Source: Paracyclopina nana
Taxonomy: Eukaryota; Arthropoda; Copepoda; Cyclopoida; Cyclopettidae
Direction of reading: 5' to 3'
NCBI GenBank assembly: GCA_019096065.1
Contig: JAGUCH010000009.1
Location: 6,086,001 to 6,150,000, forward strand
Length of the DNA: 64,000 nt
Each line of letters begins with the position of its first letter. Position 1 is the stretch's first letter. The position numbers and the translations under genes are program-made. Positions 20,945-62,677 of the stretch are shown here, piece after piece. The notes under the pieces were generated by a model, which had not been told where the DNA came from, did no database searches, and saw nothing but the letters and a program-made list of their open reading frames with translations.

Positions 20945-21177
20945 TCACTTGTGCTGCCTATGTCTGTGTTGCCTTAATGCTCCAGTTGAAGGGCCACGAT
21001 AGTCGCACATGTTACATTCATAAGGCAATGTAATGTTTAAGGCTGGCAGATCCTTTCTGGGAACATCCACGTGGTACCTGTCCATATGTTTTTGCAGTGC
21101 AAATCTGGAGGGAGCCAAATATGAGGTGCAATATCTGCAATTGAGGCCAGTGTCTTCATCATCTACCAAGAGCAAAT
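20945..21177 (-). CDS. C2H2 cassette Z11 (most distal)
   Basis: Alternative 3' exon with two fingers: CRYC..(K)HMDRYH and CNMC..RQHRHRQH. The acceptor is TTACTTCCAG. The reading ends at TGA, but the bases there are CACAA|GTGAGT, a good splice donor, so the exon may instead be spliced onward to an exon left of 20,945. This makes it the most ambiguous cassette end in the array. Confidence 0.7.
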
Positions 21178-21360
21178 CTGGAAGTAAAATCAACAATTAT
21201 TCTTAGCTTTTCATGTTCAAAGATTTTGGGACTGAGAACAAGGTTACAAGGTTTGAACCGGCTACTGAGTCCCATCAAAAACCGACTGATTGCAACATGC
21301 TTGTGAACCTTGACCTACCTTGCTAGTGACCATGGCTCGAACCTTTGGCACAACCTTACA

Positions 21361-21910
21361 CATGAGCATTTAAGAATGGCCACAACCTTGGCCTCAACCC
21401 TACCTAAAACCTCTGCCACAACCTTACCTAAAACCTTAGCTAAACCATTTCATAAAAGATAGGCCACAGCTTTACTTAGAATCATAGCTACAACCTTTGG
21501 TAAAACCTTACCTGAACCTTGGCCACAACCTTACATAGAGCCTTGGCCGCAACCTTACCTTCAACCTTAGCAACAACCTTAGGTAAAACCTTACCTAGAA
21601 CCTTGGCAACTACCTTTTGGGCCAAACCTCACCAAGAACCTTGGCAACTACCTTGGGGCCAAACCTCTCCTAGAACCTTGGCAACTACCTTGGGGCCAAA
21701 CCTTACCTAGAACCTTGACTTACTTATAACTCGACCTAGAACCTTGGCAACTACCTTGGGGCCAAACCTCACCAAGAACCTTGGCAACTACCTTGGGGCC
21801 AAACCTTACCTAGAACCTTGACCGCAACCTTACTTATAACTTGACCTCAACCCTAACAATACCTTAGCCATTCTTTACTTTGGTGCAACCTTTGTGATAT
21901 CCTTGAGCAC
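21361..21910. repeat. Minisatellite, AACCTTGGC-type units
   Basis: Imperfect tandem units built on AACCTTGG/ACCTTACC. A roughly 42-bp higher-order repeat (ACCTTGGCAACTACCTTGGG plus GCCAAACCT) is best preserved at 21,600-21,830. It lies in the intron between cassettes Z10 and Z11. The open frame across it (21,519-21,710) is a repeat translation. Confidence 0.8.
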
Positions 21911-21997
21911 AACCTTGTTCATAACCTTATAGACATGATACATGGACATGAACATTAAAGTAACAATGTATTTTCATAATGACTATTCTCTTTATTT

Positions 21998-22557
21998 TCA
22001 TATTTTCAGAGGGTCCAAAGCAGTAGACTCATCAGAAAATCCTTTGACCTTGGCAAGGACATGATAGTCCACAATTTGCTTCAAGTCCATAACTGGCCTT
22101 TTGTGGCTGCCATAAATGTGGAGGAACAGGGAATGCATTGAATTGCACATTTTGGAGCAAAACCTGCAAATGATGTCCCCCTCAAAGTGGGCACTTTTTA
22201 TGTGTCTCACAAGTGCATTGAGGTTCTTTTTGCAGGAAAAGTGGCACAAATTGCACATGAAACCATTCTCCTCAATCCTGATGAACTCATGGGCTATTTC
22301 AGGCTCAAAATGAACAGACATGATCAGGCCCAAATCCAGTTTGGTGCTGTGGCCTTTGCCCAAATGAGTCTGGTTGAAATGCCTTTTGAGGCTCTGCTCA
22401 TTTGGGTAAGCTTTGGAGCAAAATTTGCATTGCAAGCTGCAAATTTTGGGGTGCATTGTAACGTTGTGCAAATTCATCTCTGCTTTGCTTAGGCTGTAAT
22501 AGCCACAATCCATGCAAACCAATTCCCCAGTTTTGCTGGCAATTTGGCTTTTTCTGC
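21998..22557 (-). CDS. C2H2 cassette Z10, four fingers
   Basis: The longest zinc-finger cassette (186 residues after the split codon). Four C2H2-type fingers: CMDC..HNVTMH, CKFC..HFNQTH, CNLC..HIKSAH and CRFC..HIYGSH, with a 50-residue spacer between the second and third. The acceptor is TTTACTTGCAG at 22,558. It has twice the usual finger number and no close paralogue in the array. Confidence 0.8.
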
Positions 22558-22584
22558 CTGCAAGTAAACAAAGAAAGGAGCAGT

Positions 22585-22775
22585 TTAATGTGGCGTTCAT
22601 CTACATCAACTACTTGTGTGCTTTGGTCACTGCATTCTCAGTTTAGTCCTTGACGCTTAAAATAATAACGCTTTTTGACAAACAAATATTTAGCAATCAA
22701 CCAGCTGAAGAATGAGAATCAATTGTAATCTTTCAACTTCACATTCAGTTTGCAAAACTGAAATTGGCCTTTACT
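22585..22775. repeat. MITE-like repeat between cassettes
   Basis: GTGGCGTTCATCTACATC, then CAAATATTTAGCAATCAACC, ending in TTCAGTTTGCAAAACTGAAA. The right half runs into the decayed cassette at 22,745, so an insertion may have helped destroy that cassette. Confidence 0.5.
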
Positions 22776-23055
22776 ACGTCAAATTGCTTTCCATCTCGAT
22801 TTTTTTGAACAGATTGATAAACAGCGATAGTGATTTTGCATTGTTGTATTCTAGTGGTGTTTTTTATTATGATGAGCCAAATTAAGACACAAATCAAGCA
22901 TGGCAGTTGAAGATCCAGGTGTCTACACTCAACATGTCTAACCATGTTGGATCTTTTAATGCTGTTGTAAGAGAACTTTTTGCAAGCAAAATCTTTGTAG
23001 CCTCCATCATTTACTCCTATTGTGAAGCATTCCACTGGATCACCCACAAAATCTC
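22745..23055 (-). pseudogene. Decayed C2H2 cassette, relative of Z8/Z9
   Basis: The first half matches Z8/Z9 (ECFTIGVNDGGYK), but the first finger has CKKF in place of CKKC. The second finger loses its ligands after CLIC and runs into repeat-derived sequence. The acceptor and phase remain, so it could still be spliced, but neither finger can fold normally. Confidence 0.7.
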
Positions 23056-23327
23056 CTGAAAAGTACAGTTCATTGGACTTAAAACCAGCATCGAATGCAA
23101 ATCATCATGATCAATATTTTAACCAAATATTGCTTATAAAGGCGAAACTGATGCCTCTTCAACAAGATGTTATGATAAACATTTAGATTTGTAAATGCCG
23201 ACTAAGATCGAGATTTGACAATGTTCCTTGGAATGTGAAAGGCGAAACTTGACATTCTCTTGACTTTATAGTTAACATAATATGTAGCTCATAAAATATT
23301 TCATAATTGCACAATTAACTGTTGCAT

Positions 23328-23554
23328 TTATTGATGATGACTTTTTAAATGATACAACAGATTTCGCTTTGACCTGAAAATCCTGTCGCAATAGTGACAT
23401 GGCAGCTGAAGATCCAGGTGTCTACACTCGACATGTCTAACCATGTCGGTTCTATTATTGCTGCTGTAAGAGCACTTTTTGCAAGCAAAAGCTTTGTAGC
23501 CTCCATCATTTACTCCTATTGTGAAGCATTCTTCTGGATCACCCTCAGAATCTC
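23328..23554 (-). CDS. C2H2 cassette Z9 (identical twin of Z8)
   Basis: Two fingers: CKKC..HVECRH and CHYC..HLKSHH, after GDSEGDPEECFTIG. The acceptor is TATTTTTCAG at 23,555. The predicted protein is identical to Z8, 447 bp away, as is the surrounding intron DNA. Confidence 0.8.
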
Positions 23555-23774: not shown

Positions 23775-24001
23775 TTATTGATGATGACTTTTTAAATGAT
23801 ACAACAGATTTCGCTTTGACCTGAAAATCCTGTCGCAATAGTGACATGGCAGCTGAAGATCCAGGTGTCTACACTCGACATGTCTAACCATGTCGGTTCT
23901 ATTATTGCTGCTGTAAGAGCACTTTTTGCAAGCAAAAGCTTTGTAGCCTCCATCATTTACTCCTATTGTGAAGCATTCTTCTGGATCACCCTCAGAATCT
24001 C
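23775..24001 (-). CDS. C2H2 cassette Z8 (identical twin of Z9)
   Basis: Same sequence as Z9: acidic start, then CKKC..HVECRH and CHYC..HLKSHH. It is part of a perfect tandem duplication (about 23,249-23,672 and 23,696-24,119), so it is either very young, gene-converted or an assembly duplicate. Confidence 0.8.
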
Positions 24002-24191: not shown

Positions 24192-24436
24192 TTATTTCTC
24201 TAGGTTATGATGATGCTTTTTGAAGTGATAGGACAAATTTCTTTTTGATGTGAAGAGCCTGTTGCAATACTGACAAGGGAGCAGACGATCCAGGTGCTTG
24301 GCATCAATATGACGAAGTACGCAGCTCTTCCATGAGCTAGTGAACTCACAAATGGCACAAGCAAAGGATCTTCCTCCACTGCCTAACTCCTTTGTGATCA
24401 AGTGTGATTCAATTTCAGCCTCCCCACCAGTAAGTC
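24192..24436 (-). CDS. C2H2 cassette Z7
   Basis: Two intact fingers: CAIC..HIDAKH and CQYC..HFKKHH, after a GLTGGEAEIE start. The acceptor is CCATTTCAG at 24,437. Paralogue of the damaged cassette at 24,554. Confidence 0.8.
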
Positions 24437-24553: not shown

Positions 24554-24900
24554 CTAGGAACAAAGTTTTGATATTTTGACCATATCAATATGACTTTTTT
24601 CTGTATCAGACATCGTCATTTGATGCTTGATCATAATCTGCTCAAGGTAATTTGACGGTAATTTTTTTTGGTAAAGCAATGATGCTTTTTGCTGTGTTAC
24701 TATGTTTTCCTTTGATGTAAAGAGTCTGCAAGTTCTGCATTGAAGATGTTGATTCAAGTGATTGGGATCAATATGTCGAACACTGGTGAACTTTCTTGAG
24801 CTAGTGAACTCACAAATGACACAAGCATAGGATCTTCCTCCACAGCCTAACTCCTTTGTAATCAAGTGTGCCTCAATTTCAGCCACCCCACCAGTAAGTC
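24554..24900 (-). CDS. C2H2-type cassette with damaged second finger
   Basis: Paralogue of Z7 with the same start and first finger (CVIC..HIDPNH). In the second finger CRTC is followed by one residue fewer and the His pair has become Gln-Gln/Ala-Ser. The frame then continues about 45 residues beyond the Z7 end. It is open and in phase, but probably a one-finger or decaying module. Confidence 0.55.
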
Positions 24901-24952: not shown

Positions 24953-25200
24953 TCATGATTGGTTACAATATCTTTTGTAATATTTGTAGCATTTCTTGAT
25001 GTGATCATTGAGATTTCTTCTTGATGTCAGGATTTTGGGACAATATTGGCATGGCAGTTGCAGGTCCAAGTGTTTGCATTCAACATGTCTGATCAAGTTT
25101 CCTCTCTTACAGCTTGTGTAAGAGCATATGGAGCAAGTGAAGGACTTTTGGCCATTGTCACCAACCTTCATGACAATTTTTGGCTCAGCCTTTAGAACAC
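24953..25200 (-). CDS. C2H2 cassette Z6
   Basis: Fingers CSIC..HVECKH and CQYC..HIKKCY, so the second finger ends in Cys or Tyr instead of the last His (C2HC-like). The exon begins at 25,200 after a CCATTTCAG acceptor, upstream of its first Met, as expected for an internal protein segment. Confidence 0.75.
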
Positions 25201-25239: not shown

Positions 25240-25499
25240 CTATGCATTGATCTCATTGGTGGTGGCCTCTCTCCTCCATTTGAGTCCATGAAGGCCATGC
25301 TTGGACCTCATGTGTCTCATGAAGTTGTGCCTTGTGTTGCACACCTTGGGGCACATTTTGCAAGGGTAGGCATGGGCTAGGTGCTTAGCCTCAATGTGCC
25401 TCTTGACACAGACCAAATTGGGGCTTTCATAGCCACAACCATTGCAGAAATGCAAGCCTTCAGCTGATTTACTCAGCAACTCCACCACTGGATCACTTC
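25240..25499 (-). CDS. C2H2 cassette Z5
   Basis: Two fingers: CNGC..HIEAKH and CKMC..HMRSKH, then a basic tail (LKWRRE). The acceptor is ACTTTTGCAG at 25,500. No close neighbour paralogue. Confidence 0.8.
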
Positions 25500-25532: not shown

Positions 25533-25789
25533 TCACATTTGGGCAAAAGCTTGACACCTTTTCAGGTGAATTCTCATGCATGATTTTATCTTGAACACTT
25601 GATGGCACATTGAGCATGGGTACCCAGGAGAATAGTGCTTGGACTCGACATGATTGCGAATATTGGTGACAAAGGAGAAAGTCTTGCCACAATTTGGACT
25701 AGCACAAGTGTAGACACGATCCTTGTAATGAACAAATGCATCAACGCCTGGATCATAGGTTGAAGAATGCTTCCTTACACTGACGTAGC
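25533..25789 (-). CDS. C2H2 cassette Z4
   Basis: Near-identical to Z3 through the first finger (CASPNC..HVESKH) and CSMC. The tail differs (HLKRC), making the second finger C2HC-like. The acceptor is TGATTGCAG at 25,790. Confidence 0.8.
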
Positions 25790-26055: not shown

Positions 26056-26306
26056 TCAGCTTAAGTCAGTGCATTTTTTGGTGTGATTTCTCAGCGATGA
26101 TTTTATCTTGAACACTTGATGGCACATTGAGCATGGGTATCCAGGAGAATAGTGCTTGGACTCAACATGATTGCGAATATTGGTGACAAAGGAGAAAGTC
26201 TTGCCACAATTTGGACTAGCACAAGTGTAGACACGATCCTTGTAATGAACATATGCATCAACGCCTGGATCATAGGTTGAAGAATGCTTCCTTACACTGA
26301 CGTAGC
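26056..26306 (-). CDS. C2H2 cassette Z3
   Basis: GYVSVRKHSSTYDPGVDAY start, first finger CASPNC..HVESKH, second finger CSMC..HTKKC (C2HC-like). Acceptor at 26,307. It differs from Z4 by few bases over about 200, so it is a recent duplicate with a changed tail. Confidence 0.8.
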
Positions 26307-26555: not shown

Positions 26556-26833
26556 TCACAAAGGGAAAATGGTCCTCAGCTTAAAGTCCGGGCATTTTTT
26601 GGTGTGATTTCTCAGCGATGATTTTATCTTGAACACTTGATGACACACGATGCATGGGTATCCAGGAGAGTAGTGCTTCGATTCGATATGTGCTCGAATG
26701 TTGGCAAGCACAGTGCTGGCCTTGACACAATGAGGGGCAGTACAAGCATAGACTCGATTTGCTCTGTCATACCTAATGAATGCATTGACACCTGGATCAT
26801 AGGTTGATGCATGCTTCCTTACACTGACGTAGC
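26556..26833 (-). CDS. C2H2 cassette Z2
   Basis: Same family as Z3/Z4, more diverged: CTAPHC..HIESKH and CIVC..HTKKC. The acceptor is TGATTGCAG at 26,834. Tail KLRTIFPL. Confidence 0.8.
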
Positions 26834-27109: not shown

Positions 27110-27381
27110 TCATGAGGAGCTATCGCCTAAAGGATTCATGCTAGCTTGAATTTCATCGACAAGCTGCTGATGCTTCTTCACATGCCTGGACATGGTGGCT
27201 TTGATCTTAAACTCCTGGTCACACAATGGGCACTTGTACCCCGGAGAGTAATGCTTGGACTCGACATGGGCTCGAACATTGGAGATGACAGTGTAGGTGT
27301 TATTACAAGCCCTGCACCCATATCCACCCAGGATAGGGATGAAGTACGAGTCCACCTTGGGATCATAGCTAGAAAACCTAC
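27110..27381 (-). CDS. C2H2 cassette Z1
   Basis: Stem-proximal zinc-finger cassette: CRAC..HVESKH and CPLC..HVKKH, both intact, then an acidic/serine tail. The acceptor is GCTGTTGCAG at 27,382. It shares the YSPGY linker with Z2-Z4, so it probably represents their ancestral form. Confidence 0.8.
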
Positions 27382-27526: not shown

Positions 27527-27780
27527 TCACTTTCGATGCATTGAAGAATTCAATTTCAGTGAAGAAATGGCATCTAATGAGTGATTATGTGTGCCAGTCC
27601 ATGACACAACAAGGAAGCCATCAGTGACAGCTCTGGCACCACACTTGAACTTGTCGGAATCTCGACACCTCCAATAGATTCTGGACTCTTTCTTTGAATT
27701 GGACCTGTAGGCATAGCCAATTTTGTCGACGAGTACAGCATTGCCAAACTTGCTCCTCATAAAAGTGGCCTCTTCCGGAT
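27527..27780 (-). CDS. FLYWCH cassette F37 (most distal)
   Basis: FLYWCH zinc finger: YWRC, C after seven residues, HNH. It starts DPEEATFMRSKFG. The acceptor is CAATTGTTGCAG at 27,781. This is the border between the FLYWCH and C2H2 halves of the array. Confidence 0.8.
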
Positions 27781-28370: not shown

Positions 28371-28639
28371 TCACATGTTGGAGTAGTTGTACACTTCCAC
28401 TGTGTGGGAATGTTCACCACTATACTTGGTGACCTTGTCGCCAGTGGTGACAGCTCTGGCATTGCACTTGTACTCAGGCCCGTTGTGCAAGCACAGCCAG
28501 AAAATCCTATTGCTAGAATCATAGTGTCGACCATTCTTTCGATACAAGAAGCCATTGCTATCAATCAGCCTCAGAGCATTTCTCGATTTAGTCCGGATGA
28601 TATTTGCCTCCTCAATGTAACCAAATGGGAGATTATTCC
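28371..28639 (-). CDS. FLYWCH cassette F36
   Basis: Intact exon with no Met near its start, so it is easily missed by Met-to-stop ORF calling. FWLC, C after eight residues, HSH, ending in VEVYNYSNM and a stop. The acceptor is TCCTGTTCCAG at 28,640. Paralogue of F35 and of the relic at 27,860. Confidence 0.75.
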
Positions 28640-28718: not shown

Positions 28719-28987
28719 TCACAAGCTTGAAAAATTGTACACTTCAACTGGATGGCTGTGCTCCCCAGTAAATTTGGCAATCTTGTCTTCCAGGGTGACA
28801 GCCCTGGCCTTACACTTGTACTTTGAGGCTGAAGGATTAAGCAAGCAGAGCCAAAAGCGCCTTGACTGGGTGACACCATTCCTATTCTTTCGATATATGA
28901 ATCCTTGGCTGTCAATCAGTCTCAAGGCATTAGTGGAGGTGGTGATAATGTTTGCCTCTTCAACCCTCTCCTGCTTAACTCCAAACC
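28719..28987 (-). CDS. FLYWCH cassette F35
   Basis: FWLC, C after ten residues, HSH, ending in VEVYNFSSL. Acceptor GATGTTTCAG at 28,988. Same length (269 bp) as F36. The long + strand frame over it (28,735-29,376) is antisense. Confidence 0.78.
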
Positions 28988-29049: not shown

Positions 29050-29309
29050 TCATTGGTATGCATTGAACTTCCTCACAATTGGAAGATGATTATGATCCTC
29101 TCCTTTCTTTGTGACTTTGCTACCAATGGTGACAATCCTGGAGCTACATTTCTTCTTCGCTTTGACAATGCACTCCCAGAACACTTTCCCACTAGACTTG
29201 GACTTTTTATTGATGACATAAGAGAAACCTCTGATGTCATAGAGCAAAGGGTTGCCCTTGGTAGTCTGAGAAAACCCTCCAACCTCTTCTATGTATTTGA
29301 ATGCCTTAT
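29050..29309 (-). CDS. FLYWCH cassette F34
   Basis: FWEC, C after seven residues, HNH, with a lysine-rich finger (KAKKKC). The acceptor is TTGTCTTCCAG at 29,310. It shares EEVGGFSQTTKG with the F30-F33 starts (GGY.TT.RG). Confidence 0.78.
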
Positions 29310-29372: not shown

Positions 29373-29980
29373 CTAAGCTAATTGGCTTAGTTGAAGTTTC
29401 TTTATCATTCTACGCTTCTTTTTGCCCTTCAGAACCTCAATGGGCCTGAATTTCTTCCTATGCTTGTACAAGCCAGATTGAATGTTTCTAAACGATGAAG
29501 CTTCCTGCAGAAAGGAGATCTCATCGAAACCCTCAAGATTGGACACAAACTCTTGCTTGACTTCATCGTACAGCTTTGTGAGCGGCTTGTTTGGATCCTT
29601 TTCAACCGCATCGTAAAGCCTCAAATGGAATTTGCGAACCAAACTCTCAGTGGCAGACGGTGAGCAATCATGATCATCTTCGCTTGGAAGTTTGAGAAGC
29701 CTGAATGATGGTGTGCCATCCGGAGCGGTAGACTTGTAGGCTCTGGCATATGTGCTGAGTCCAAGCTTGGCACAAGCATTGCACTCGAAGCACACAATTC
29801 CCTCATCTCCAGGAGTGTCCTTGTGCTTTCTGAATGTGTATGGAGGAACCCTGAGTGTCACCAAAACTCGATTCTCACCAGCCTTCTTGCCAGTTTTGTA
29901 GTCAGTTTTTCGCAGCATGAACTCATGGAATGGCCAAGACTCTTCTACCTTTGCATGCACAAGAGGGTCAACAGCATCTT
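29373..29980 (-). CDS. Long FLYWCH-variant cassette L3
   Basis: About 202 residues. After KVEESWPFHEFMLRKTDY and VPPYTFRKH comes a Cys/His cluster laid out like a FLYWCH finger: CFECNAC, an ARA word, then HDC. A 90-residue tail follows with FHLRLYDAVEKDPNKPL, SFLQEASSFRNIQS and YKHRKKFRP, then a basic end (KGKKKRR). The tail matches my memory of the region after FLYWCH domains in MULE-transposase-related proteins (SFRNI..YRHRRK..P). Acceptor ATTTCAG at 29,981. Confidence 0.75.
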
Positions 29981-30075: not shown

Positions 30076-30689
30076 TTAAAAATCCAAGTCGTTAATTGGT
30101 GGCAACTTTTTGAGCAGTCTACGCCTCTTTTTGCCCTTCACAAGGTCAGTTGGCCTGAACTTCTTCCTATGCCTGTAAAGACTAGCCTGGATTGATCTAA
30201 ATGACGAGGCTTCTTGCAGAAAGGAGACCAAGTCAAAACCCTCAAGATTGGACACAAACTCTTGCTTGACTTCATTGTACAGCTTTGTGAGTGGCTTGTT
30301 TGGATCCTTTTCGACCTCGTCGTGCAGCCTCAGATTGAACTTGCGCACCAAGCTTTCAGTGGCAGATGGTGAACAATCATGATCATCTTCGCTTGGAAGC
30401 TTCAGAAGCTTGAACGAAACTGTGCCATCCTCATGAGTGGTTTTATGGGCACTGGCATAGGTATTGAACCCGAGGCGGGCACAAGGGTTGCATGCAAAGA
30501 ACACGGTTCCCGCATTTTCAGGAGTGTCTCTTTGTCGTCTGAATGTGTAAGGAGGAACGCTTAGTGTCACCAAAACTCGATTCTCGCCAGCTCTTTTGCC
30601 ACTTTTGTAGTCAGACTTTCGAATGATAAACTCATGGAAAGGCCAAGGCTCTTCTACCTTTGGCTGAGCAAGAAGGTCAACAACATCTT
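30076..30689 (-). CDS. Long FLYWCH-variant cassette L2
   Basis: Paralogue of L1 and L3 with all shared elements: EEPWPFHEF, FFACNPC, HDCSPSATES, LHDEVEKDPNKPL, FRSIQASLYRHRKKFRP and a basic C-end. The acceptor is TCATTTCAG at 30,690. The flanking intron is a close copy of the one beside L1, so L1 and L2 are the younger pair or have been converted. Confidence 0.75.
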
Positions 30690-30783: not shown

Positions 30784-31400
30784 TTAAAAGTTTAAGTCAT
30801 CAAATGGTGGTAGTTTATTTTGCATTCTACGCCGCCTCTTTTTCCCCTTGGTCAGCTCAACTGGCCTGAATTTCTTCCTATGCTTGTACAAGCCGGATTG
30901 AATGTTTTTGTAAGACGTAGCATCTTGCTCGAAGGAGATCTGATCAAACCCTTCCAAAGAGGACATAAACTCTGCTTTCACTTCATCGTAAAGCTTTTGC
31001 AGTGGCTTATTCGGGTCTTTCTCAACCTCATCGTAAAGCCTCAATTGGAACTTGCGGCTCAAGCTCTCAGTGGCAGAAGGTGAACAATCATGATCATCTT
31101 CACTTGGAACTTTTTGCAGCTTGAACGACAGTGTGCCATCCGGAGCAGTTGTTTTGTATGCTCTTGCGCAAGTCCTGAACCCAAGCCTGGAGCAAGAGTT
31201 GCAGGCAAAGTACACCGTTCCCTCATCACCAGGAGCATCCCTGTGTCGCTTGAATGTGTATGGAGGAACTCTGAGGACTACCAAAGCACGACTCTCGCCA
31301 ACTCTCTTGCCAGTTTTGAAGTCCGTCTTCCGGATGATAAACTCATGGAATGGCAAGGACTCTTCAACCTTTGGCTGAGCAAGAAGGTCAACGACATCTT
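30784..31400 (-). CDS. Long FLYWCH-variant cassette L1
   Basis: Stem-proximal member: EDVVDLLAQPKVEESLPF start, YFACNSC, HDCSPSATES, YDEVEKDPNKPL, YKHRKKFRP, KGKKRRRR. The acceptor is CATTTCAG at 31,401. The three long modules keep cysteines, HDC and the tail while other positions vary, indicating selection on protein function. Confidence 0.75.
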
Positions 31401-31522: not shown

Positions 31523-31818
31523 TTATTCATTGATGATAATCTTGTCGAAAACTCTGTCAAGAGTAGCTGACTGGTCATGGTTATGAGAGGACTTGAAGGC
31601 TGTGATCATTCGACCATTTGTAGTGCACCTACTGGGGCAAGAGAACCTTTTGTGGAACCTGCACTTCCAAAACACCTTGTCATTGGCACTGGACCTTTTG
31701 TTAATGAGATATGAGAAGCCCTGCTTGTCTATGAGCAGAGGACAGCCTCTGGTTGTGGTGGAAAAGGTAGCCTCTTCACCAGCAAAAAGAGCTTCATCTA
31801 CTGGATCAGCATCTTCTT
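31523..31818 (-). CDS. FLYWCH cassette F33
   Basis: FWKC, C after seven residues, HNH. Acidic start EEDADPVDEALFAGEE. The acceptor is TTCATTTCAG at 31,819. Confidence 0.8.
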
Positions 31819-51343: not shown

Positions 51344-51366
51344 CTGCAACTGGAAATGTGAGAGGT

Positions 51367-52590: not shown

Positions 52591-52862
52591 TCATAGGTGT
52601 AATTGAGTCTTCAAGATGGGCTCATGGTTGTGAGCCCTGCAAAACATGATGATATAATCATCCTTAGTTTGCAGCCTACTCTTGCACCCCTTGTTTTGCC
52701 TGCCACACTTCCAAGACACTGTGTTTTTGGTCTTATTCCACTTGCGTTGATTGTAATTGTAGCCCTGGTCATCTATCAACACTTTGTTGCCACGATTGCG
52801 TAAGCTAGGTATGTAATGGGCTGGCATGGGTGGATCACATGGAAGCATCGACAGCTCAACAT
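52591..52862 (-). CDS. FLYWCH cassette F21
   Basis: SWKC, C after six residues, HNH, then EPILKTQLHL. Acceptor TTGCTTGCAG at 52,863. Confidence 0.8.
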
Positions 52863-53039: not shown

Positions 53040-53266
53040 TTAATCCTCTATGAAATGGTTATGCAAGCCTGACAAGGTGACAATGATTTGGTCTTGGCAG
53101 ACAGCCTTGGCTGGGCATTTGAACCTAGCTCTTCTGGCCATCTGGCAACGCCAGTAGCTTCTGCCACCACCCTTAAACTTGTCACATGGCTGAAACATGT
53201 AACCAGTCTGATCACACATCCTCCAAATGCCAGGGGAGATCTCTAAAAACCGCGCCTTTCCCAGCC
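53040..53266 (-). CDS. FLYWCH cassette F20
   Basis: YWRC, C after nine residues, HNH, Arg-rich finger (ARRARFKC). Acceptor TGCAATTCCAG at 53,267. No close paralogue. Confidence 0.78.
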
Positions 53267-53292: not shown

Positions 53293-53497
53293 TTATAACA
53301 GCTTTTCATCAATGACAATTACTTTCAAAACTATCATTGTTTGAGTAAGCCTCTTTCGTCTGGAGCATCTCCAGAACTTGAGGCCGTTGGCAGTGAAACG
53401 ATGCCCATGATAGGAGCATCCTTGATCATCAATCAGAATTTGTCCTCTTCCTTGCTTGGAATTCTCGGAACAAACCTTTTTATGAGCTTCCAATCTG
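53293..53497 (-). pseudogene. Decayed FLYWCH cassette, F18/F19 group
   Basis: Keeps FWRCSRR but a deletion after it removes the second Cys and the His pair. The acceptor has changed from GTAG|G to GTGAG|C, which also breaks phase (length + 1 not divisible by three). Confidence 0.75.
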
Positions 53498-53608
53498 CTC
53501 ACAAAACATCAAAAGAGTTTTCGCATCATTGGTGACTCATTCAACCAGCATGAACGCTTCAATGCTTAATGAAGAAGCGTAAATGATTTCTTTGATAACG
53601 CTTATTCT

Positions 53609-53841
53609 TTAATTCGCATGCAAGTGAATGTGTGCATTTTTCCTCAGTACAATCCAGTTATCACGAGTGTAAGCCTCAGCAGGACACTTGAACCTCAGTC
53701 ATCTGGAGCATCTCCAGAACTTGAGGCCGTTAGCAGTGAAACGATGCCCATGATAGGAGTATCCTTGATCATCAATCAGAATTCGGCCTCCTCTTTGCTT
53801 GGTAGTCTCGAAATAAGCTTGCTCGTGAACTTCCAATCTGC
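53609..53841 (-). pseudogene. FLYWCH cassette with a single nonsense codon
   Basis: Acceptor, phase, FWRC, second Cys, HIH and the final stop are all kept. The only defect is an in-frame TGA at 53,699-53,701 (one base from an Arg codon CGA/AGA), two codons after FWRC. This could be a fresh null, an allele or a base error. The paralogue at 53,293 is more decayed. Confidence 0.8.
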
Positions 53842-53963
53842 CTACAAAACATCAAATGAGTTTTCGCATCATCGGTGACTCAATCAACCAACATGTTGAA
53901 ATCATCGATAACTTTTCTAGAAGCGATTCAAAGAATACAAAGGTGCTTTTGTATTTCAAGTGG

Positions 53964-54184
53964 TCAGACAGAAGGGTGATTGTGAACGTTTTTCCTCCTA
54001 ACAATGTGGCTTTCTAGAGTGTAGACTCTAGCCTTGCACTTGGTCTGTCTTCTTTTAGAGCATCTCCAACACTGTTGGCCTCTCACAATAGAGTCCTTAT
54101 AGTACATGTATCCTCGAGTATCAACCAGAGCTCTGCCATGAGACATGGTCTGGCAATGAGCTGGCTCAAATACTTCCATCTCTC
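53964..54184 (-). CDS. FLYWCH cassette F19
   Basis: CWRC (Cys instead of Tyr before Trp), C after seven residues, HNH. Acceptor TATCTTGTAG at 54,185. The start GEMEVFEPAH is shared in outline with F18. Confidence 0.78.
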
Positions 54185-54233: not shown

Positions 54234-54481
54234 TTAAGCCATGACTTTAGATCCATCTGGCAAATGAGAATGATCATTTCTCCTCTCAACTATGAGGCCA
54301 CCAGTGGTGTACACCTTGGCCTTGCATTTACAACTTCTTCTCTTGGAGCACCTCCAATAGCTGAGGCCTTTGGCATTCATGTTGCTCCCATTATAAGTGA
54401 AGCCATGGGCATCAATCAAAATTTTGCCTCCAGCTTTGGAAGCCTGAATGAGCCCTGGCTCACACAGCTCAAAATTTCCTC
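54234..54481 (-). CDS. FLYWCH cassette F18
   Basis: YWRC, C after seven residues (with an extra Cys inside, RRSCKC), HSH. Acceptor ATTTTGTAG at 54,482. Confidence 0.8.
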
Positions 54482-54514: not shown

Positions 54515-54735
54515 TCATGGGTGGTGATTGTGGCTCTCAGCACTGCGACTGATGATGACATCATTCCTGCAAAACAGCTTGGCTTTGCAGTTGAAAGTTC
54601 TAGGGTGGAATTTGTTACATCTCCAGTAAATACTGCCATTCTGATTGATCCTGCTTTGGTGGTAGGTGAACCCATCCGAGTCTCTCAGCAGAGATTTGCC
54701 ACGTGAGGACAAATAGAACTCCACCATTGACTTGC
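54515..54735 (-). CDS. FLYWCH cassette F17
   Basis: YWRC, C after nine residues, HNH. Acceptor GTATTTACAG at 54,736 gives GKSMVEFYLSS. The frame stays open upstream of the acceptor, so an ORF finder fuses it with non-coding DNA to 55,072. Confidence 0.8.
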
Positions 54736-54866: not shown

Positions 54867-55087
54867 TCAAGGGAGATGATTGTGTGGTTTCTCCCCATGC
54901 TTGACAATGAAGCCATTGCTAGTGTGAACTGTAGCTCGACAACTGCCATATTCTGGATACACTCGCCTACACCTCCAGTAAGTGAGCCCGTCTCTTCCTG
55001 AAGACGGCTTAAACATGTAAATGTAGCCAAGGCTATCCTTGAGCTGCTTTTTGCCACGCTGCGACAGGACATATTCCGCTGGCTCGC
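54867..55087 (-). CDS. FLYWCH cassette F16
   Basis: An intact 73-residue cassette hidden beneath an open frame in another phase. YWRC, C after nine residues, HNH, ends PHNHLP then TGA. Starts GEPAEYVLSQRG; acceptor ATTTTAG at 55,088. Near-identical to F13. Confidence 0.78.
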
Positions 55088-55213: not shown

Positions 55214-55434
55214 TTATGGGAGATGGTTGTGACGATGATCGCCATGTTTCACAATGAAGCCACCTAAAGTGTGGCATGTTGCTTTGCAGCTGCCATATTG
55301 TGGATACTTGAGCTTGCACCTCCAGTAAGTGCTTCCATTCGTTTTTGAGGTTTTATCACGAATGTAAATGTAGCCCAGGCCATCTTGGAGCATTTCTTTG
55401 CCATGCTGGGACATGACATACTCCGCTGGCTCGC
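55214..55434 (-). CDS. FLYWCH cassette F15
   Basis: YWRC, C after nine residues, HNH. Start GEPAEYVMSQHG. Acceptor TTGTTTTAG at 55,435. Member of the 221-bp F12-F16 clade. Confidence 0.8.
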
Positions 55435-55511: not shown

Positions 55512-55732
55512 TCATGGGAGATGGTTGTGACGTTTATCACTATGTTTCACAATGAAGCCTTTAGAAGTGTGGCAAGTTGCTTTGCAGCTACCATATATTG
55601 GATTCTTCCACCTACACCTCCAGTAGGTGTTTCCTTTCCTTTTTGAGGTCCTATCATGAATGTAAATGTAGCCAAGGCAATCTCGGAGCATTTTTTTGCC
55701 CTGCTGAGACAGGATATAATCCACTGGCTCGC
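55512..55732 (-). CDS. FLYWCH cassette F14
   Basis: YWRC, C after nine residues, HNH. Start GEPVDYILSQQG; acceptor ATTATTTTAG at 55,733. Differs from F12 and F15 mainly between the two cysteines (RWKNPIYGS). Confidence 0.8.
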
Positions 55733-55864: not shown

Positions 55865-56085
55865 TCAAGGGAGATGATTATGTGGTTTATCCCCATGCTT
55901 GACAATGAAGCCATTACTAGTGTGAACTGTAGCTCGACAACTGCCATATTCTGGATACACTCGCCTACAACTCCAGTAAGTGAGCCCTTCTCTTCCTGAA
56001 GATGGCTTAAACATGTTAATGTAGCCAAGGCTATCCTTGAGCAATTTATTGCCATGCTTCAACACGACATACTCCACATGTTTGC
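55865..56085 (-). CDS. FLYWCH cassette F13
   Basis: YWSC, C after nine residues, HNH. Start GKHVEYVVLKHG; acceptor TGTTATTTTAG at 56,086. Close copy of F16, 1 kb away. Confidence 0.8.
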
Positions 56086-56140: not shown

Positions 56141-56361
56141 TTATGGAAGATGGTTGTGAGGCTGATCGCTATGTTTCACAATGAAGCCATCAAAAGTGTG
56201 ACAGGTTGCTTTGCAGCTGCCGTATTCTGGATACTTGCACTTGCACCTCCAGTGAGTGCTGCCATTCTTTCTTGAGGTTGTATCATGAATGTAAATGTAG
56301 CCAATGCTATCTTTGAGCATTTTTTTGCCATGCTGAGACATGACATACTCCACAGGCTCGC
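56141..56361 (-). CDS. FLYWCH cassette F12
   Basis: HWRC, C after nine residues, HNH. Start GEPVEYVMSQHG; acceptor TTGTTCCAG at 56,362. Confidence 0.8.
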
Positions 56362-56435: not shown

Positions 56436-56662
56436 TCAGGGGAGATGGTTGTGAGGTTCATTACCCCTCTTCACAACCATATGTCCCAAGGTTTGAACAG
56501 TGGCTCTACAGTATCCAAGATTTGAATACTTTCGCCTACACCTCCAAAGAGTTCTTCCATGCCTTCCAAGAGTTCCAGGTTGTCTATTCACATAAATGTA
56601 GCCCAAGTTATCTTTGAGCATAAGCTTGCCTTGTCGCGACACAATGTATTCAGCCGACTCAC
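56436..56662 (-). CDS. FLYWCH cassette F11
   Basis: LWRC, C after nine residues, HNH. A two-codon-longer loop (PGTLGRHGRT) than its neighbours. Acceptor TTATTCCAG at 56,663. Confidence 0.8.
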
Positions 56663-56732: not shown

Positions 56733-56953
56733 CTAAGGAAGGTGATTGTGTGGATGCAGACCAATTTTCACAATAAAGTCATCCAGGGTTTGAACTGAGG
56801 CTTTGCAATTGCCGTATTCTGGATACGCTCGCTTACACCTCCAATATGAAAGGCCAGCTTTCCCAGAGCTGGACTTTCGCGTGTAAACAAAGCCTTGCTG
56901 ATCCTTGATCATTTTATTACCACGTTGAGACAACACATATTCCACTCGTTCGC
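56733..56953 (-). CDS. FLYWCH cassette F10
   Basis: YWRC, C after nine residues, HNH. Start GERVEYVLSQRG; acceptor TTGTTCTAG at 56,954. Paralogue of F9 (MIKDQ word). Confidence 0.8.
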
Positions 56954-56997: not shown

Positions 56998-57155
56998 CTA
57001 AGTGAAAACTGTGGTAGACTTGTAATTGTAAAGAATACAACTGAACTTGTTGCGCCTCCAATCAATTTGACGATTTAGACTCTGCCTATTCTGGTGATAC
57101 ACTTGACCAGCATTGTCTCTTAAGAGGATTCTGCCTTGAAGAGAAGTCAAGAGCT
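56998..57155 (-). pseudogene. Decayed FLYWCH cassette, metal ligands lost
   Basis: Acceptor GGTGTAG and phase kept, but DWRRN replaces the WRC and NYKS the second Cys, and the frame stops before any His pair. Paralogue of 57,588. Confidence 0.75.
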
Positions 57156-57326
57156 CTACACCGAAATCTTCTGAATCTTCACAAAGGATGTTCGTGTTTG
57201 CTTCTCCCATGTACAATCGAGTCATTGAAAGCGTTAGACCAGCCTGTTTTTTCGAAGATGTTCGGGCCAAAATAAAGCATGAATATTATGACACATTCAT
57301 TTCATGATATGAAATGTTTTCATGAT

Positions 57327-57550
57327 CTAAGGAAGGTGATTGTGAGAGGTCTTGCCAAACTTAACAATTATGTCATCAAGGGTTTGAATTGTGGCTTTGC
57401 AACTGCCATATCCTGGATTGGCACGCCTACACCTCCAGTATGAGTATCCAGCTCTATGATAGCTTGCTTTGCTCATGTACGCAAAGCCGAGCTGATCCTT
57501 TATCATTTTATTGCCACGATGTGACATGAACACTTCCACTCGATGTTGGC
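57327..57550 (-). CDS. FLYWCH cassette F9
   Basis: YWRC, C after nine residues, HNH. Start GQHRVEVFMSHRG; acceptor TTGCTTCTAG at 57,551. Confidence 0.8.
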
Positions 57551-57587: not shown

Positions 57588-57791
57588 TCAGATATCAGTA
57601 TGGAGGTTCACAGGTGGATGAATGGCAATGACGTTATCTTTCGTGAAGACCTTAGCCTTGCAATTGAAATAAATGCGACTGAGCTTGTTACACCGCCAAT
57701 AAATTTGACCATTTAGACTCTGTCTATTTTGGTGATACACATGACCAGCATTGTCTCTTTTGAGGAGTCTGCCTCTAGGAGAAGTCAAGAG
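57588..57791 (-). pseudogene. FLYWCH cassette with acceptor-side 2-bp loss
   Basis: Finger partly kept (YWRC, second Cys), but relative to the paralogue at 56,998 two bases are missing right after the acceptor (TTTAG|CTCTTG versus GTAG|AGCTCTTG), which breaks the phase. The HNH is replaced by IHPPVN. Probably dead. Confidence 0.65.
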
Positions 57792-57816: not shown

Positions 57817-58061
57817 TCACAAGGGATGATTGTGATTGTTTCTTCGGAGGACAATCGAGTCATTGAGAGTGTTCGCTTTGGCCTTGCAAAAGAAGGCCTT
57901 TGTTTTGAACTTGGAGCATCTCCAGGCTATGCTGCCATTGGTGGTGATCCTGGTTTTGTAATAAGTGAACCCTTGGGAGTCTTTCAATATGATACCATCA
58001 TTGTTGTGAGGGGATGGCAAGAAATGAGCCTCTTCCTGCACAACTCGAGCAGGTGCTCCAC
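57817..58061 (-). CDS. FLYWCH cassette F8
   Basis: AWRC (Ala before Trp), C after nine residues, HNH. Acceptor GTCATTGTAG at 58,062 gives GGAPARVVQEEAHF. Confidence 0.78.
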
Positions 58062-58223: not shown

Positions 58224-58459
58224 TCAAGTTTCTTGGTGGTTATGCTCAGCACTTCGAGCCACAATTTTGCCATTCTCAGTATAGATTTTGGCCTTGCAAT
58301 TCCGCTGATGCTTGACATACTTCCGGCACCTCCAATAAAGCCTACTGGATTCTTGGCCAGGTCGAACCTTCAGATATATGTAGCCAAATTGGTCCTTGAC
58401 ACGAAAATGACCATTATACACTTGAATGAGCTCCATAGGTTCTTCGACAGCATAAACGC
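58224..58459 (-). CDS. FLYWCH cassette F7
   Basis: YWRC, C after nine residues, HNH, ends QET. Acceptor TATTCACTAG at 58,460 gives GVYAVEEPMELIQVY. A truncated twin lies at 58,889. Confidence 0.8.
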
Positions 58460-58485: not shown

Positions 58486-58748
58486 TCAGCATTTGGCTTT
58501 TTTCCTCGATGGCAAAACTGCCTCGTTTGGACCATGGATATGGACACCGGACTTTTTCTTAATGAAAAACCCCTGGGTGACAGCACTGCTCCTACAATAG
58601 CCTCGTTTCTTCGGGGCGAAAACGCATCTCCAATAAATGTTCTTCTCTGTCGTTTTGTCTTTCGTGTATCTAAATCCTTTGGAGTCAACAAGGATGGGTT
58701 TTCCAAATTTGCTCTTAGAAAAGTGAGCTTCCTCAAAGGCGTCAGCTT
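58486..58748 (-). CDS. FLYWCH cassette F6
   Basis: YWRC, C after nine residues, HIH, Lys/Arg-rich end. Acceptor GTTGCTTGCAG at 58,749. Near twin of F5. Confidence 0.8.
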
Positions 58749-59054: not shown

Positions 59055-59311
59055 TTAAGCTTTTTTCTTCGTTGGCAAAACTGTCTCATTCGGACCATGG
59101 ATATGGCTACTGGATCGTTTCTTTATGAAAAACCCTTGGGTGATGGCAGTGCTCCTGCAATAGCCTCGTTTTTTGGTGGCAAAAACGCATCTCCAATAAA
59201 TGTTCTTCTCAGTCGTTCTGACTTGAGAGTATCTAAATCCTTCAGAGTCAACAAGGATGGCCCTTCCATATTTGCTCTTTGAAAATTGAGCTTCCTCGAA
59301 GGGGTCAGCTT
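59055..59311 (-). CDS. FLYWCH cassette F5
   Basis: YWRC, C after nine residues, HIH. Acceptor GTTGCTTGCAG at 59,312. F5 plus the truncated F7 copy repeat the F6 plus F7 order, so a two-cassette block was duplicated. Confidence 0.8.
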
Positions 59312-59345: not shown

Positions 59346-59590
59346 CAGGTAATTTCACGAGGGCCATGGATTTGAACCACATGATTTAAGCTTAGTAAAA
59401 AAACCATCGGTGACAGCCCTACCTATTCCATATCCATGCTTGTTATTGCCAAACACACATTGGTAATAAACCTTTTCCTCTCTTGCTTAGCTCTTAGCAT
59501 ATCGAAATCCATCAGAGTGAACAAGGATGGCATCTCTAAATTTGCTTGTAGAAAACTGAGCTTCCTCATAAGAGACCAGTTTCAGCAATA
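59346..59590 (-). pseudogene. Decayed FLYWCH cassette, F4 type
   Basis: The minus strand matches F4 (EEAQFSTSKF, HSDGFRYAKS) but has a stop after AKS, YYQC instead of YWRC, Tyr for the second Cys and no His pair. Confidence 0.8.
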
Positions 59591-59673
59591 TAAATTGGAC
59601 AGGACCCAAGATCATTTTGATTTTAATATCAGATATTAAAGAAATCTTAAAAATGCACTCATGACATCAAGAA

Positions 59674-59963
59674 TTATTGAGTATTTTTTTCGGACTTTGA
59701 TTTCAAAAGCTTCGCCTTTTTCTTTGATGGAACAGGATCATGCGGACCATGAGTGTGGACCCCTGTTTTTTGCTTGATCATAAAACCATAAGTGACAGCC
59801 TTGCCTGTACAATGGCCAAGCTTGCTATTGCCAAAAGTGCATCGCCAATACACCTTTTTCTCTCTTGCTTTGCTCTTTGCATATCGAAATCCATCAGAGT
59901 CAATGAGGATGGCACCTCCAAATTTGCTTGTAGAAAAATGAGCTTCCTCAAAGGGGCCAGCTT
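59674..59963 (-). CDS. FLYWCH cassette F4
   Basis: YWRC, C after nine residues, HTH, then a lysine-rich tail (KKKAKLLKSKSEK). Acceptor TCTTGCTTGCAG at 59,964. Confidence 0.8.
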
Positions 59964-60055: not shown

Positions 60056-60315
60056 TCATTCTTTTCCAAGTGGATGAGTAGGATTTACAATTGGCTTTTC
60101 AAAGGGGCCATGGATGTGACCCCCAGTTTTTTGCTTGATAATGAACCCATAGGTGACTGCTTTGCCCTTACAATGGCCTCGCTTTTTCACACCATATACG
60201 CATCTCCAGTAGATCTTTTCATTTCTTATCGTAACCTTATTATACTTAAATCCATCGGAGTCTAAGAGCTGTGCATGTCCATATTTGCTTCGTTCAAACT
60301 GAGCAACCTCGGCGT
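60056..60315 (-). CDS. FLYWCH cassette F3
   Basis: YWRC, C after nine residues, HIH. Acceptor TTGCTTGCAG at 60,316. Nearly identical to F2, with only a handful of codon differences, mostly before and after the finger. Confidence 0.8.
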
Positions 60316-60401: not shown

Positions 60402-60661
60402 TCAGTCGTTTCCAAGTGGATCAGAAGGGTTGACAATCGGCTTTTCAAAGGGGCCATGGATGTGACCCCCAGTTTTTTGCTTAATAATGAACCCGTGGGT
60501 GACTGCTTTGCCCTTACAGTGGCCTCGCTTTTTCACACCATATACGCATCTCCAGTAGATCTTTTCATTTCTTACTGTAACCCTATTGTACCTAAATCCA
60601 TCCGAGTCTAAGAGCTGTGCTTGTCCGGATCTGCATTTTTCGAACTGAGCAACCTCGGCTT
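60402..60661 (-). CDS. FLYWCH cassette F2
   Basis: YWRC, C after nine residues, HIH. Acceptor TTGCTTGCAG at 60,662. Same length as F3, so a recent duplicate. Confidence 0.8.
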
Positions 60662-60780: not shown

Positions 60781-61148
60781 TTTCCCTACCAGATTATAAC
60801 TCAGTTCCCTAGTGTCCCTACCAGAATGAAGCTGGGTTCCCTAGCTTTCCCTACCAGAATGAAGCTGGGTTCCCTAGTTTCCCTACCAGAGTGAAGCTGG
60901 GTTCCCTAGTTTCCCTACCAGAATGAAGCTGGGTTCCCTAGTTTCCCTACCAGAATGAAGCTGGGTTTCCTAGTTTCCCTACCAGAATGAAGCTGAGTTC
61001 CCTAGTTTCCCTACCAGAATGAAGCTGAGTTCCCTAGTTTCCCTACCAGATTATAACTCAGTTCCCTAGTTTCCCTACCAGAATGAAGCTGAGTTCCCTA
61101 GTTTCCCTACCAGAATGAAGCTGAGTTCCCTAGCTTCCCTACCAGACA
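60781..61148. repeat. Minisatellite, 32-bp unit
   Basis: About eleven copies of a unit combining TTTCCCTACCAGAATGAAGC and TGGGTTCCCTAG, with two variant copies carrying ATTATAACTC. It lies in the intron between F1 and F2. Confidence 0.9.
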
Positions 61149-61160
61149 TAATTATAGGTT

Positions 61161-61393
61161 TCAAATAGCTTTTAATGCGATTTTGTCTATGTGCATATGC
61201 TTGTTTCTACTGAATACAATTGTGTTCGATTTGTCATTGGTATGGACTCTAGTCTTGCATCCTGGATATCTACACTTCCAAAGCGACTTGCTTGGCCCAG
61301 CTTTGATGCGATAATAGCTATTGCCTTTAGAGTCCCACAAAATGGGATTTTTGCCTCGACTTGAAGCCGTGACATAACACCGGAGGAGATCAT
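61161..61393 (-). CDS. FLYWCH cassette F1 (next to the stem)
   Basis: LWKC, C after only four residues, HMH. A compact, divergent finger. Acceptor TTGTCTTGCAG at 61,394 gives DDLLRCYVTASSRG. First acceptor met by the transcript after the stem. Confidence 0.75.
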
Positions 61394-61467
61394 CTGCAAG
61401 ACAACAACATAGGTACACTTGTCTCAAGATGCGGATTTTCTCCTTCCCTACCTTGAAAGTAACCGGA

Positions 61468-61553
61468 TTTTCCGTGCTGAAGGCGCTTGGACAAACGGTG
61501 GGGATCCATTAGGGTTGACAAAACAGTTGCCAACCCTAACTTCAGCACGGGAA
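61468..61553. repeat. Nested inverted repeat in the stem-F1 intron
   Basis: Outer arms TTCCGTGCTGAAG (about 61,470-61,482) and CTTCAGCACGG(GAA) (61,540-61,553). Inner arms TTAGGGTTG (61,509-61,517) and CAACCCTAA (61,531-61,539). It would fold as a stem with a 26-base bulge on one side. Confidence 0.7.
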
Positions 61554-61675
61554 AAATGTCGAGAAAATCAAAGCTAGGGGTGGGCAAAATAAAACGCGAC
61601 TTAACTAGCCAAAATGTATATGATCAAGCTTGGAGCCCAACTAGCAAAAGGAAAAAAGCAATTAAATTGCTCAAA

Positions 61676-61780
61676 GAAGCTTGAGCAACATTGACCATGT
61701 CATGGTGCATGAGATTGAACACAGCTTCAAGCTATTTCACATTGATGCCTTCCAAACAAATAAGATGGTTTCAAGACGTT
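61676..61780 (-). pseudogene. Decayed BTB-exon fragment in the first intron
   Basis: About 100 bp matching the stem BTB exon at 62,305-62,400 (GAGCAACATTGACC, then CATGGTGCATGAGATTGAAC against CATGGTACATGAAGTTGAGC). It no longer encodes the domain. Confidence 0.75.
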
Positions 61781-61863
61781 TTTTAAGGTTTTAAGCATGA
61801 TAAATGGCTTAAAATCAATGCTATGCTTGGCTCCAAGCTTGGAAAACAAAGAGGGTTGCCTAC

Positions 61864-62677
61864 CTTTGGAGTCGGTGGCAGTTCCGGAGCCACCGGGAGC
61901 GCCAAGACTGCTGTCGTCAAAGTCATCGCCGTACTGAGCAAAGCTGTCAAAGTCTTCACCCTCGCCAAAGTCATTAGCTTCTACCTCATCACCAGCATAG
62001 CTATCTTCCTCAGCCTCCAATGGCACATTCGAGCCCGAAGGCTCAGGCTCGGCTTTGATCCTCTTGACATCCAGCTCTTCGACAACATCGTCATCATCGT
62101 CATCGTGACTGGCAGGAGTGGGTTTGGCCTTCTTGGCAGCTCCAGCATTGGGAGCCGTCGCTGGGGGAAGGGATGATTTTCGCTTAGCTGGCACAGCCTT
62201 TTTTCTTTGGTCATTGGTTGTCGACTCTGAGTTGGTTGAGGATTTGCCATCTGTGGTCAAGCCTTTCACGGCCAATTCCTCGGCCACAGCAAGGAAATTG
62301 TTCAAGGCGTCTTGAGCAACATTGACCTCGCCATGGTACATGAAGTTGAGCACAGCTTGGAGCTCTTTCAGCTTGATGCCTTTCAGGTAAAGAAACGGGT
62401 TTTGTGTGTGCTTCTGGTGGGCCAAGATCTTCCGGAAGAGGGGCGAGCAAGCGGCCAAGATCACTTTGTGGGCTTGGACCACATCAGTCCCATTATCGCA
62501 GCAAAGGGTGACGTCAAAGAACTCGGAATCTTGCCGAAGTTCGCGGAAACTTGTGCTGATATTCGACTCGAAGTCGTTCCACCTGAAACGCCAAGGATGC
62601 CCAAGATATTAACGGATTCTGGCAAGGAAAATAACGGCCATTGCTCACCTCAGACAAAAGTTGTCTGACGATCCCAT
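61864..62677 (-). CDS. BTB/POZ stem of the cassette locus (lola/mod(mdg4) type)
   Basis: Coding exon 1 is 62,649-62,677 (ATG, MGSSDNFCL plus two bases), intron 62,583-62,648, exon 2 is 61,864-62,582. Together they give 249 residues plus one base. FCLRWNDF and the BTB fold (FFDVTLCC, AHKVILAACSP, FMYHGEVNVAQ) occupy residues about 5-120, as in insect BTB transcription factors that dimerise in the nucleus. The linker has basic clusters (KRKSS, KKAKP), a run of Asp, a sumoylation-like IKAE and a long acidic stretch before the donor AAAG|GTAGGC. If the donor is not used, the frame reads 45 codons further to a stop at 61,727, giving a finger-less form. Whether it is the true lola or mod(mdg4) orthologue is undecided. 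Confidence 0.88.

Follow-up and report, generated by a model that had tools for sequence, protein, structure and literature searches.

The 64,000-nucleotide window analysed here, bases 6,086,001-6,150,000 of contig C9 in a ten-contig, 92-Mb genome assembly of the copepod Paracyclopina nana, very probably contains a single arthropod gene for transcription factors built on the BTB stem-and-cassette plan: a stem encoding a BTB domain, which would be joined in each message to one of some fifty cassettes lying behind it on the same strand. To judge from its arrangement, these cassettes would be alternative 3' exons of a single gene.

The stem comprises two minus-strand coding exons, whose protein begins MGSSDNFCLRWNDF and ends ...TATDSK with one base left over. 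The donor after the second exon, AAAG/GTAGGC, leaves one codon base and so confirms the phase-1 end described in an initial annotation made from the sequence alone; position 61,863, given there as the junction, marks the right donor site but is the first base of the intron, the last exon base being 61864. The BTB domain scores above the Pfam cut-off and, by the FxLRWN mark at the stem N terminus (NFCLRWNDF), is of TTK type, for which one survey reports no case outside Arthropoda (PMC11426971).

Behind the stem, from 61393 down to 20945, lie 53 intact-looking minus-strand cassettes: 38 FLYWCH, 3 long and 12 C2H2. FLYWCH cassettes were collected with our own model, derived from 30 Pfam matches to FLYWCH and applied at 35 bits or more over at least 45 positions; the long ones were picked by the motif PFHEF, and the C2H2 ones by one finger pattern in the minus frames of the 20.9-27.6 kb region. 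At E 0.01 Pfam recognises FLYWCH in 37 of the 38 and zf-C2H2_4 in 11 of the 12; the three long cassettes match no Pfam family at E 0.05, and the structure predicted for one of them, 29373-29980, is of low confidence (predicted local distance difference test, pLDDT, 56). The FLYWCH cassettes all keep D, G, W, C, C and the last H, just as the C2H2 cassettes all keep C, C, H, H of the first finger and C, C of the second, and every cassette frame closes with its own stop. The initial annotation had counted 37 FLYWCH, 3 long and 11 C2H2 exons: the figure for the long ones stands, the others become 38 and 12. Minus-strand frames with at least two finger patterns also number 11, the twelfth C2H2 cassette (24554-24900) having no intact second finger.

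Acceptors were picked by a generic score that ignores phase. The best-scoring AG is in phase 1 in 47 of the 53 cassettes, in phase 0 in three and in phase 2 in three (p 8e-17 against one third); the phase-1 share is 40/45 after collapsing to unique contexts (p 1e-14) and 27/30 by family at 50% identity (p 2e-10), and these counts rule out chance as the source of the common phase. In the six exceptions an in-phase AG ranks second (five cassettes) or fourth (one). The plus strand of the window holds no convincing cassette, its FLYWCH matches being two at chance level (E >0.2). The cassettes are thus, as first described, on the stem's strand, preceded by AG, matched in phase and each provided with a stop. 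No further cassettes appeared in the 29.7 kb to the left or the 9.9 kb to the right of the window; BED cassettes, known in relatives, gave no hit in the window and, among the genome matches listed, occur only at C3:4363-4364 kb.

A search of a protein database with the stem (best 120 of 5626 matches) and with two relatives' stems (best 120 each) yielded 178 proteins overall, each entry representing a cluster at 90% identity. The stem end was located by pattern in 172; of the other six, three are cut short and three have a different stem end, yet continue with E, G or D. The residue after the junction is G in 67, D in 61, V in 24, A in 13 and E in 7, hence always one encoded by GNN, as phase 1 requires. 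The 172 include 19 short proteins that look unspliced, continuing through the donor with GR. Apart from three further tails of under 30 residues, the remaining 150 fall into 133 clusters at 80% identity and sit on 13 stem clusters (95%), the largest carrying 43, 24, 23, 19 and 15 distinct tails; one stem cluster comprises 50 proteins with 43 tails. Twenty-four proteins share an identical 267-residue stem and then bear 24 different tails. The longest contigs for these 24 measure 1281-2487 bases, and in the present genome the distance from stem start to cassette end is 1.5 kb for the nearest cassette and 42 kb for the farthest; stem and tail lying without a gap on 1.3-2.5 kb contigs are best read as spliced messages.

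All 53 cassettes of the window match relatives' tails (E 1e-3), while matches to a window cassette (E 1e-4) were obtained for 124 of the 151 tails, 95 of them starting within five residues of the predicted junction. Searched by tblastn, the tails gave 1958 hits, none on the plus strand, and all 11 relatives' stems sampled are closer to the C9 stem than to its paralogue on contig C3. The proposal of the initial annotation that one stem feeds many cassettes is therefore upheld by identical stems that change tail at the predicted residue; the contrary outcomes it had named, cassettes never joined to the stem or separate genes with their own starts, are not what was found in the relatives, to which this evidence applies.

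Tail types were assigned for 142 of the 151 proteins that look spliced; the nine omitted comprise three short or cut tails and six nearly identical versions of a single FLYWCH tail. At E 0.01 Pfam recognises BTB in all 142, FLYWCH in 87, BED in 17, zf-C2H2_4 in 9, BrkDBD in 3, HTH_Tnp_1 in 2 and HTH_Tnp_Tc5 in 1. Identical stems can bear different classes of tail: BED in P0004, FLYWCH in P0008 and, in P0012, a BrkDBD match just below the cut-off. Among the matches listed, 2 of the 133 tail clusters are common to several stem clusters (80%). P0037, P0156 and P0164, also on relatives' stems, have the short tail NPLEDLSRIVS with no recognised domain, and two of these entries comprise 21 member sequences; the tail was not found in the window or in the loci fetched as L009-L032 (best E 0.18-0.35).

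Proteins of this kind might instead be the products of repeated whole-gene duplication, with a separate stem for each tail, in which case the one-stem interpretation could not be transferred from relatives to this locus. Extra stems do exist in this genome, on C3 with three cassettes and on C8 with one, but duplication of whole genes sits badly with 24 stems identical over 267 residues while their tails differ, and with the 19 unspliced-looking stems that read through the donor; we consider it very improbable. Alternatively, most cassettes could be small genes or pseudogenes of FLYWCH or C2H2 type, independent of the BTB gene and lying behind it only by chance. Zinc-finger genes often occur in tandem clusters, and an in-frame Met precedes the core inside the predicted exon in 15 of the 53 cassettes and is present somewhere upstream in the open frame in 35, so that separate starts are possible for those. 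For most cassettes we nevertheless reject this origin as scarcely credible, on the strength of the 47 phase-1 acceptors, the 38 predicted exons with no Met ahead of the core, and the fusion of the same stem to matching tails in relatives.

In the stem-and-cassette gene as we picture it, the two stem coding exons would supply the TTK-type BTB domain and an acidic linker whose last residue, K, is followed by one base of a split codon; the single donor (61864/61863) would be joined to one of about fifty alternative last exons, which would complete the codon as GNN and add a FLYWCH, C2H2 or long tail with its own stop. Most cassettes would probably be joined to the stem in cis, on a single long pre-mRNA, since all are on the stem's strand and the gaps between a stop and the next acceptor are short (median 124 bases; 30 of 52 under 150, 12 under 60). 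The same products could be made by trans-splicing, cassettes with promoters of their own being joined to the stem transcript in the style of Drosophila mod(mdg4), all of whose mRNAs are described as trans-spliced, the 3' exons being transcribed from independent promoters (PMC12692577). A single strand does not exclude this, because in Anopheles gambiae the donor and acceptors share one strand and trans-splicing is still thought to occur (PMC4667647). One relative's protein, P0040, does combine a stem of C9 type with a C2H2 tail that in the present genome is clearly matched in the C1 locus (L027:4061-4315, 55% over 84 residues); this single case of 150 may reflect either movement of a cassette or trans-splicing between loci. 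Such short gaps, however, leave little room for separate promoters; no opposite-strand cassette was found, unlike in Drosophila and the Lepidoptera examined; and Daphnia, one beetle and two Hymenoptera are reported to be cis-spliced (PMC4667647). Trans-splicing thus seems to us unlikely.

Because all isoforms would contain the same BTB domain, they could assemble with one another, as dimers or hexamers whose members differ in DNA-binding tail. The initial annotation envisaged BTB heterodimers, which is right as to mixing but probably understates it: TTK-type BTB domains are reported to form hexamers (PMC11426971), which would allow very many mixed assemblies of different tails. That different tails would have different DNA targets is plausible by analogy with Drosophila, where Mod(mdg4) variants N and T are described as occupying different sites, and where knock-down of N, V and AF raises the level of one telomeric retrotransposon (PMC9723646).

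Several observations weigh against this picture, besides the separate starts that an in-frame Met would allow. Joining of stem to cassettes is deduced from anatomy here and from spliced-looking proteins in relatives, and the contigs of the latter are taken to be complementary DNA from stem-tail contiguity and short length. Polyadenylation signals (AATAAA or ATTAAA, sought over 400 bases or up to the following acceptor) speak in part for the picture, as they follow 21 of the 53 cassettes, where random placement in the locus gives 9.2 +/- 2.7 and reached 21 in none of 500 trials; against it, 32 cassettes have no such signal, and the control placements include coding sequence and are unmatched in composition. 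A 14.6-kb gap holding a probable retroelement divides the array. Finally, 27 of the 150 tails fit the small C3 locus best, and 29 fit no fetched array.

Coordinates of stem, cassettes and remnants in the window (position 1 is its first base; P numbers are relatives' proteins)
Feature	Position	Strand	Evidence or remark
Stem coding exon 1	62677-62649	-	ATG, FxLRWN start (MGSSDNFCLR), then split codon
Stem exon 2	62582-61864	-	BTB domain (above Pfam cut-off), acidic linker; phase-1 end
Decayed BTB-exon piece in first intron	61654-61791	-	43% identity, 3 stops
FLYWCH cassette	61161..61393	-	acceptor scan; reciprocal best hit P0076, 58%
FLYWCH cassette	60402..60661	-	acceptor scan
FLYWCH cassette	60056..60315	-	acceptor scan
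FLYWCH cassette	59674..59963	-	acceptor scan
FLYWCH cassette	59055..59311	-	acceptor scan
FLYWCH cassette	58486..58748	-	acceptor scan
FLYWCH cassette	58224..58459	-	acceptor scan
FLYWCH cassette	57817..58061	-	acceptor scan
FLYWCH cassette	57588..57772	-	acceptor scan; weakest in-phase acceptor (rank 4 of 4)
FLYWCH cassette	57327..57550	-	acceptor scan
FLYWCH cassette	56733..56953	-	acceptor scan
FLYWCH cassette	56436..56662	-	acceptor scan
FLYWCH cassette	56141..56361	-	acceptor scan
FLYWCH cassette	55865..56085	-	acceptor scan; in-phase acceptor rank 2
FLYWCH cassette	55512..55732	-	acceptor scan; in-phase acceptor rank 2
FLYWCH cassette	55214..55434	-	acceptor scan
FLYWCH cassette	54867..55087	-	acceptor scan
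FLYWCH cassette	54515..54735	-	acceptor scan
FLYWCH cassette	54234..54481	-	acceptor scan
FLYWCH cassette	53964..54184	-	acceptor scan
FLYWCH cassette	53040..53266	-	acceptor scan
FLYWCH cassette	52591..52820	-	acceptor scan; ambiguous acceptor (in-phase AG rank 2)
FLYWCH cassette	51714..51997	-	acceptor scan
FLYWCH cassette	51367..51671	-	acceptor scan
FLYWCH cassette	51090..51349	-	acceptor scan
FLYWCH cassette	50425..50714	-	acceptor scan
FLYWCH cassette	49642..49883	-	acceptor scan
FLYWCH cassette	49073..49314	-	acceptor scan
FLYWCH cassette	48730..48956	-	acceptor scan
FLYWCH cassette	48226..48503	-	acceptor scan
FLYWCH cassette	33360..33646	-	acceptor scan
FLYWCH cassette	33006..33250	-	acceptor scan
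FLYWCH cassette	31855..32132	-	acceptor scan; reciprocal best hit P0059
FLYWCH cassette	31523..31818	-	acceptor scan
Long cassette, no Pfam family	30784..31400	-	matches P0128 tail; in-phase acceptor rank 2
Long cassette, no Pfam family	30076..30689	-	reciprocal best hit P0128; in-phase acceptor rank 2
Long cassette, no Pfam family	29373..29980	-	acceptor scan; low-confidence structure model
FLYWCH cassette	29050..29309	-	acceptor scan
FLYWCH cassette	28719..28987	-	acceptor scan
FLYWCH cassette	28371..28639	-	acceptor scan
FLYWCH cassette	27527..27780	-	73% to P0078, top identity among the 53 to a relative's tail
C2H2 cassette	27110..27381	-	acceptor scan, finger alignment, Pfam
C2H2 cassette	26556..26833	-	acceptor scan, finger alignment
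C2H2 cassette	26056..26306	-	acceptor scan, finger alignment
C2H2 cassette	25533..25789	-	acceptor scan, finger alignment
C2H2 cassette	25240..25499	-	acceptor scan, finger alignment; reciprocal best hit P0092, 55%
C2H2 cassette	24953..25200	-	acceptor scan, finger alignment
C2H2 cassette, degenerate second finger	24554..24900	-	acceptor scan, finger alignment
C2H2 cassette	24192..24436	-	acceptor scan, finger alignment
C2H2 cassette, coding-identical to 23328-23554	23775..24001	-	acceptor scan, pairwise comparison
C2H2 cassette, coding-identical to 23775-24001	23328..23554	-	acceptor scan, pairwise comparison
C2H2 cassette, several fingers	21998..22557	-	acceptor scan, finger alignment
C2H2 cassette, last of array	20945..21177	-	acceptor scan, finger alignment; reciprocal best hit P0086
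Broken FLYWCH cassette	59358..59666	-	FLYWCH model scan
Truncated FLYWCH cassette	57001..57285	-	FLYWCH model scan
Two truncated FLYWCH cassettes	53296..53851	-	FLYWCH model scan
Two FLYWCH fragments	47822..48149	-	FLYWCH model scan
FLYWCH fragment	33852..34004	-	FLYWCH model scan
FLYWCH fragment	32540..32695	-	FLYWCH model scan
C2H2 remnant	22889..23035	-	tblastn with relatives' tails

Cassettes would arise by tandem duplication and then be kept by purifying selection or decay, a course that the array bears out in part. The scan with the FLYWCH model found at least eight broken or partial copies, which represent cassette decay. The coding-identical C2H2 pair results from either a very recent duplication or gene conversion, and limits the number of distinct proteins to 52 at most. 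The ratio of non-synonymous to synonymous substitution rates (dN/dS) is 0.16-0.66 in 31 of the 33 cassette pairs of over 55% identity and undefined in two, these being pairwise values for pairs that are not independent, with dS above 1 in several. Within the gap in the array there is a plus-strand run of long open frames (34490-43691), of which that at 38049-40757 matches RNase H and, just below the cut-off, an integrase core; the gap thus probably holds a retroelement of the long-terminal-repeat type. Between it and the FLYWCH cassettes are three minus-strand open frames of 162-214 codons (44614-47475) with no Pfam match at E 0.001.

Four other loci of this genome have related BTB stems. Two small paralogous ones are at C3:1573091-1575041 (L009; stem identity 68-71%, three FLYWCH cassettes) and C8:4587730 (L010; 57%, one FLYWCH cassette); the latter is not an intronless retrocopy, its fused frame containing a 60-base intron with phase-1 donor and acceptor. 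At C1:17199295-17210656 (L027, L028) the stem is followed by 25 finger-bearing cassette-like frames (17200669-17210656), 23 of them with a phase-1 best acceptor, and at C4:1008439-1014988 (L025) by 17, of which 12 have one; some of these frames are partial, and the C1 count leaves out two distant rows. Judged by the C2H2 cassettes in the stretches retrieved, C1 or C4 could be the counterpart of lola. The first cassette at C3 shares 93% identity with a tail that occurs on four relatives' stem clusters, and the best-fitting locus for the 150 tails is C9 for 91, C3 for 27, C8 for 2, C1 for one and none for 29: cassettes seem to have been allotted to loci differently in different species, or to have been lost here.

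All five donors (C9, C3, C1, C4, C8) read AAAG/GTA in phase 1, so that in principle any kind of cassette could plug into any stem. It is possible, though we hold it only tentatively and with some doubt, that these loci form a genome-wide plug-and-socket system of five BTB stems and about 99 cassette-like exons, broken ones included, in which the stem stays fixed while cassettes multiply by copying, pass from one stem to another and are drawn from several DNA-binding families, among them helix-turn-helix domains of transposase type. If so, fast turnover of tails, to which the 2 shared clusters among the 133 listed point, would suit a repertoire evolving against mobile elements.

Elsewhere in the window, outside the locus, the plus strand has two overlapping frames with Cys-rich repeats at 7.4-7.9 kb and a neighbouring frame, 10997-12160, with a match just below the cut-off to the Diaphanous FH3 domain.

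Should the stem-and-cassette interpretation be correct, one gene would yield about fifty transcription factors with a common assembly domain, more than in the insect counts found. It would also offer a compact test bed for the choice by one donor among fifty acceptors, and for the birth and loss of DNA-binding repertoires while the partner domain stays constant.

The initial annotation likened the locus to Dscam, in which a large library of alternative exons lies behind constant exons. As regards the size of the library the likeness holds loosely; the Dscam alternatives are internal exons chosen in clusters, whereas here each message would take a single last exon that carries its own stop. When docking pairs were sought between 33 intron windows and 52 upstream regions, the lowest mean z was -4.7, relative to a crude shuffle with no positional control. 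Closer parallels are found in insects, compared here by architecture and published descriptions. Insect mod(mdg4) likewise has a TTK-type BTB stem and one of many 3' exons, mostly FLYWCH, the domain of 38 of the 53 tails here; its isoforms number 31 in Drosophila and up to 41 in Plutella (PMC4667647), above the 20-30 alternatives that the initial annotation gave for mod(mdg4) and lola in Drosophila. It is described as trans-spliced in Diptera and Lepidoptera, and in Drosophila and the Lepidoptera examined, though not Anopheles, acceptor exons occupy both strands, whereas none was found on the plus strand of the window. The present locus differs further in its 12 C2H2 and 3 long cassettes, its two stem coding exons and its extent of 42 kb on one strand. 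Drosophila lola resembles it in having a BTB stem with alternative C2H2 3' exons, C2H2 being present in 17 of 20 isoforms (PMC11426971), a class that accounts for only 12 of the 53 cassettes here. Among crustaceans, Daphnia pulex has a mod(mdg4)-like homologue reported to be canonically cis-spliced, for which the accessible part of PMC4667647 mentions no large cassette array; one survey infers that Mod(mdg4) arose on the stem lineage of Neoptera or perhaps at an earlier point in insect evolution (PMC5094011). In the literature covered, which included few subscription papers, we found such a locus described for no crustacean, and no mention of FLYWCH, C2H2 and long cassettes mixed in one locus, of such a count, or of a donor phase shared by several loci. 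The design is thus that of insect mod(mdg4) and lola, already known; what is different here is its size (53, counted as cassettes, that is exons, against a largest insect figure of 41, counted as isoforms, that is exon combinations), the mixture of FLYWCH and C2H2, and a phase-1 donor common to four other BTB loci.

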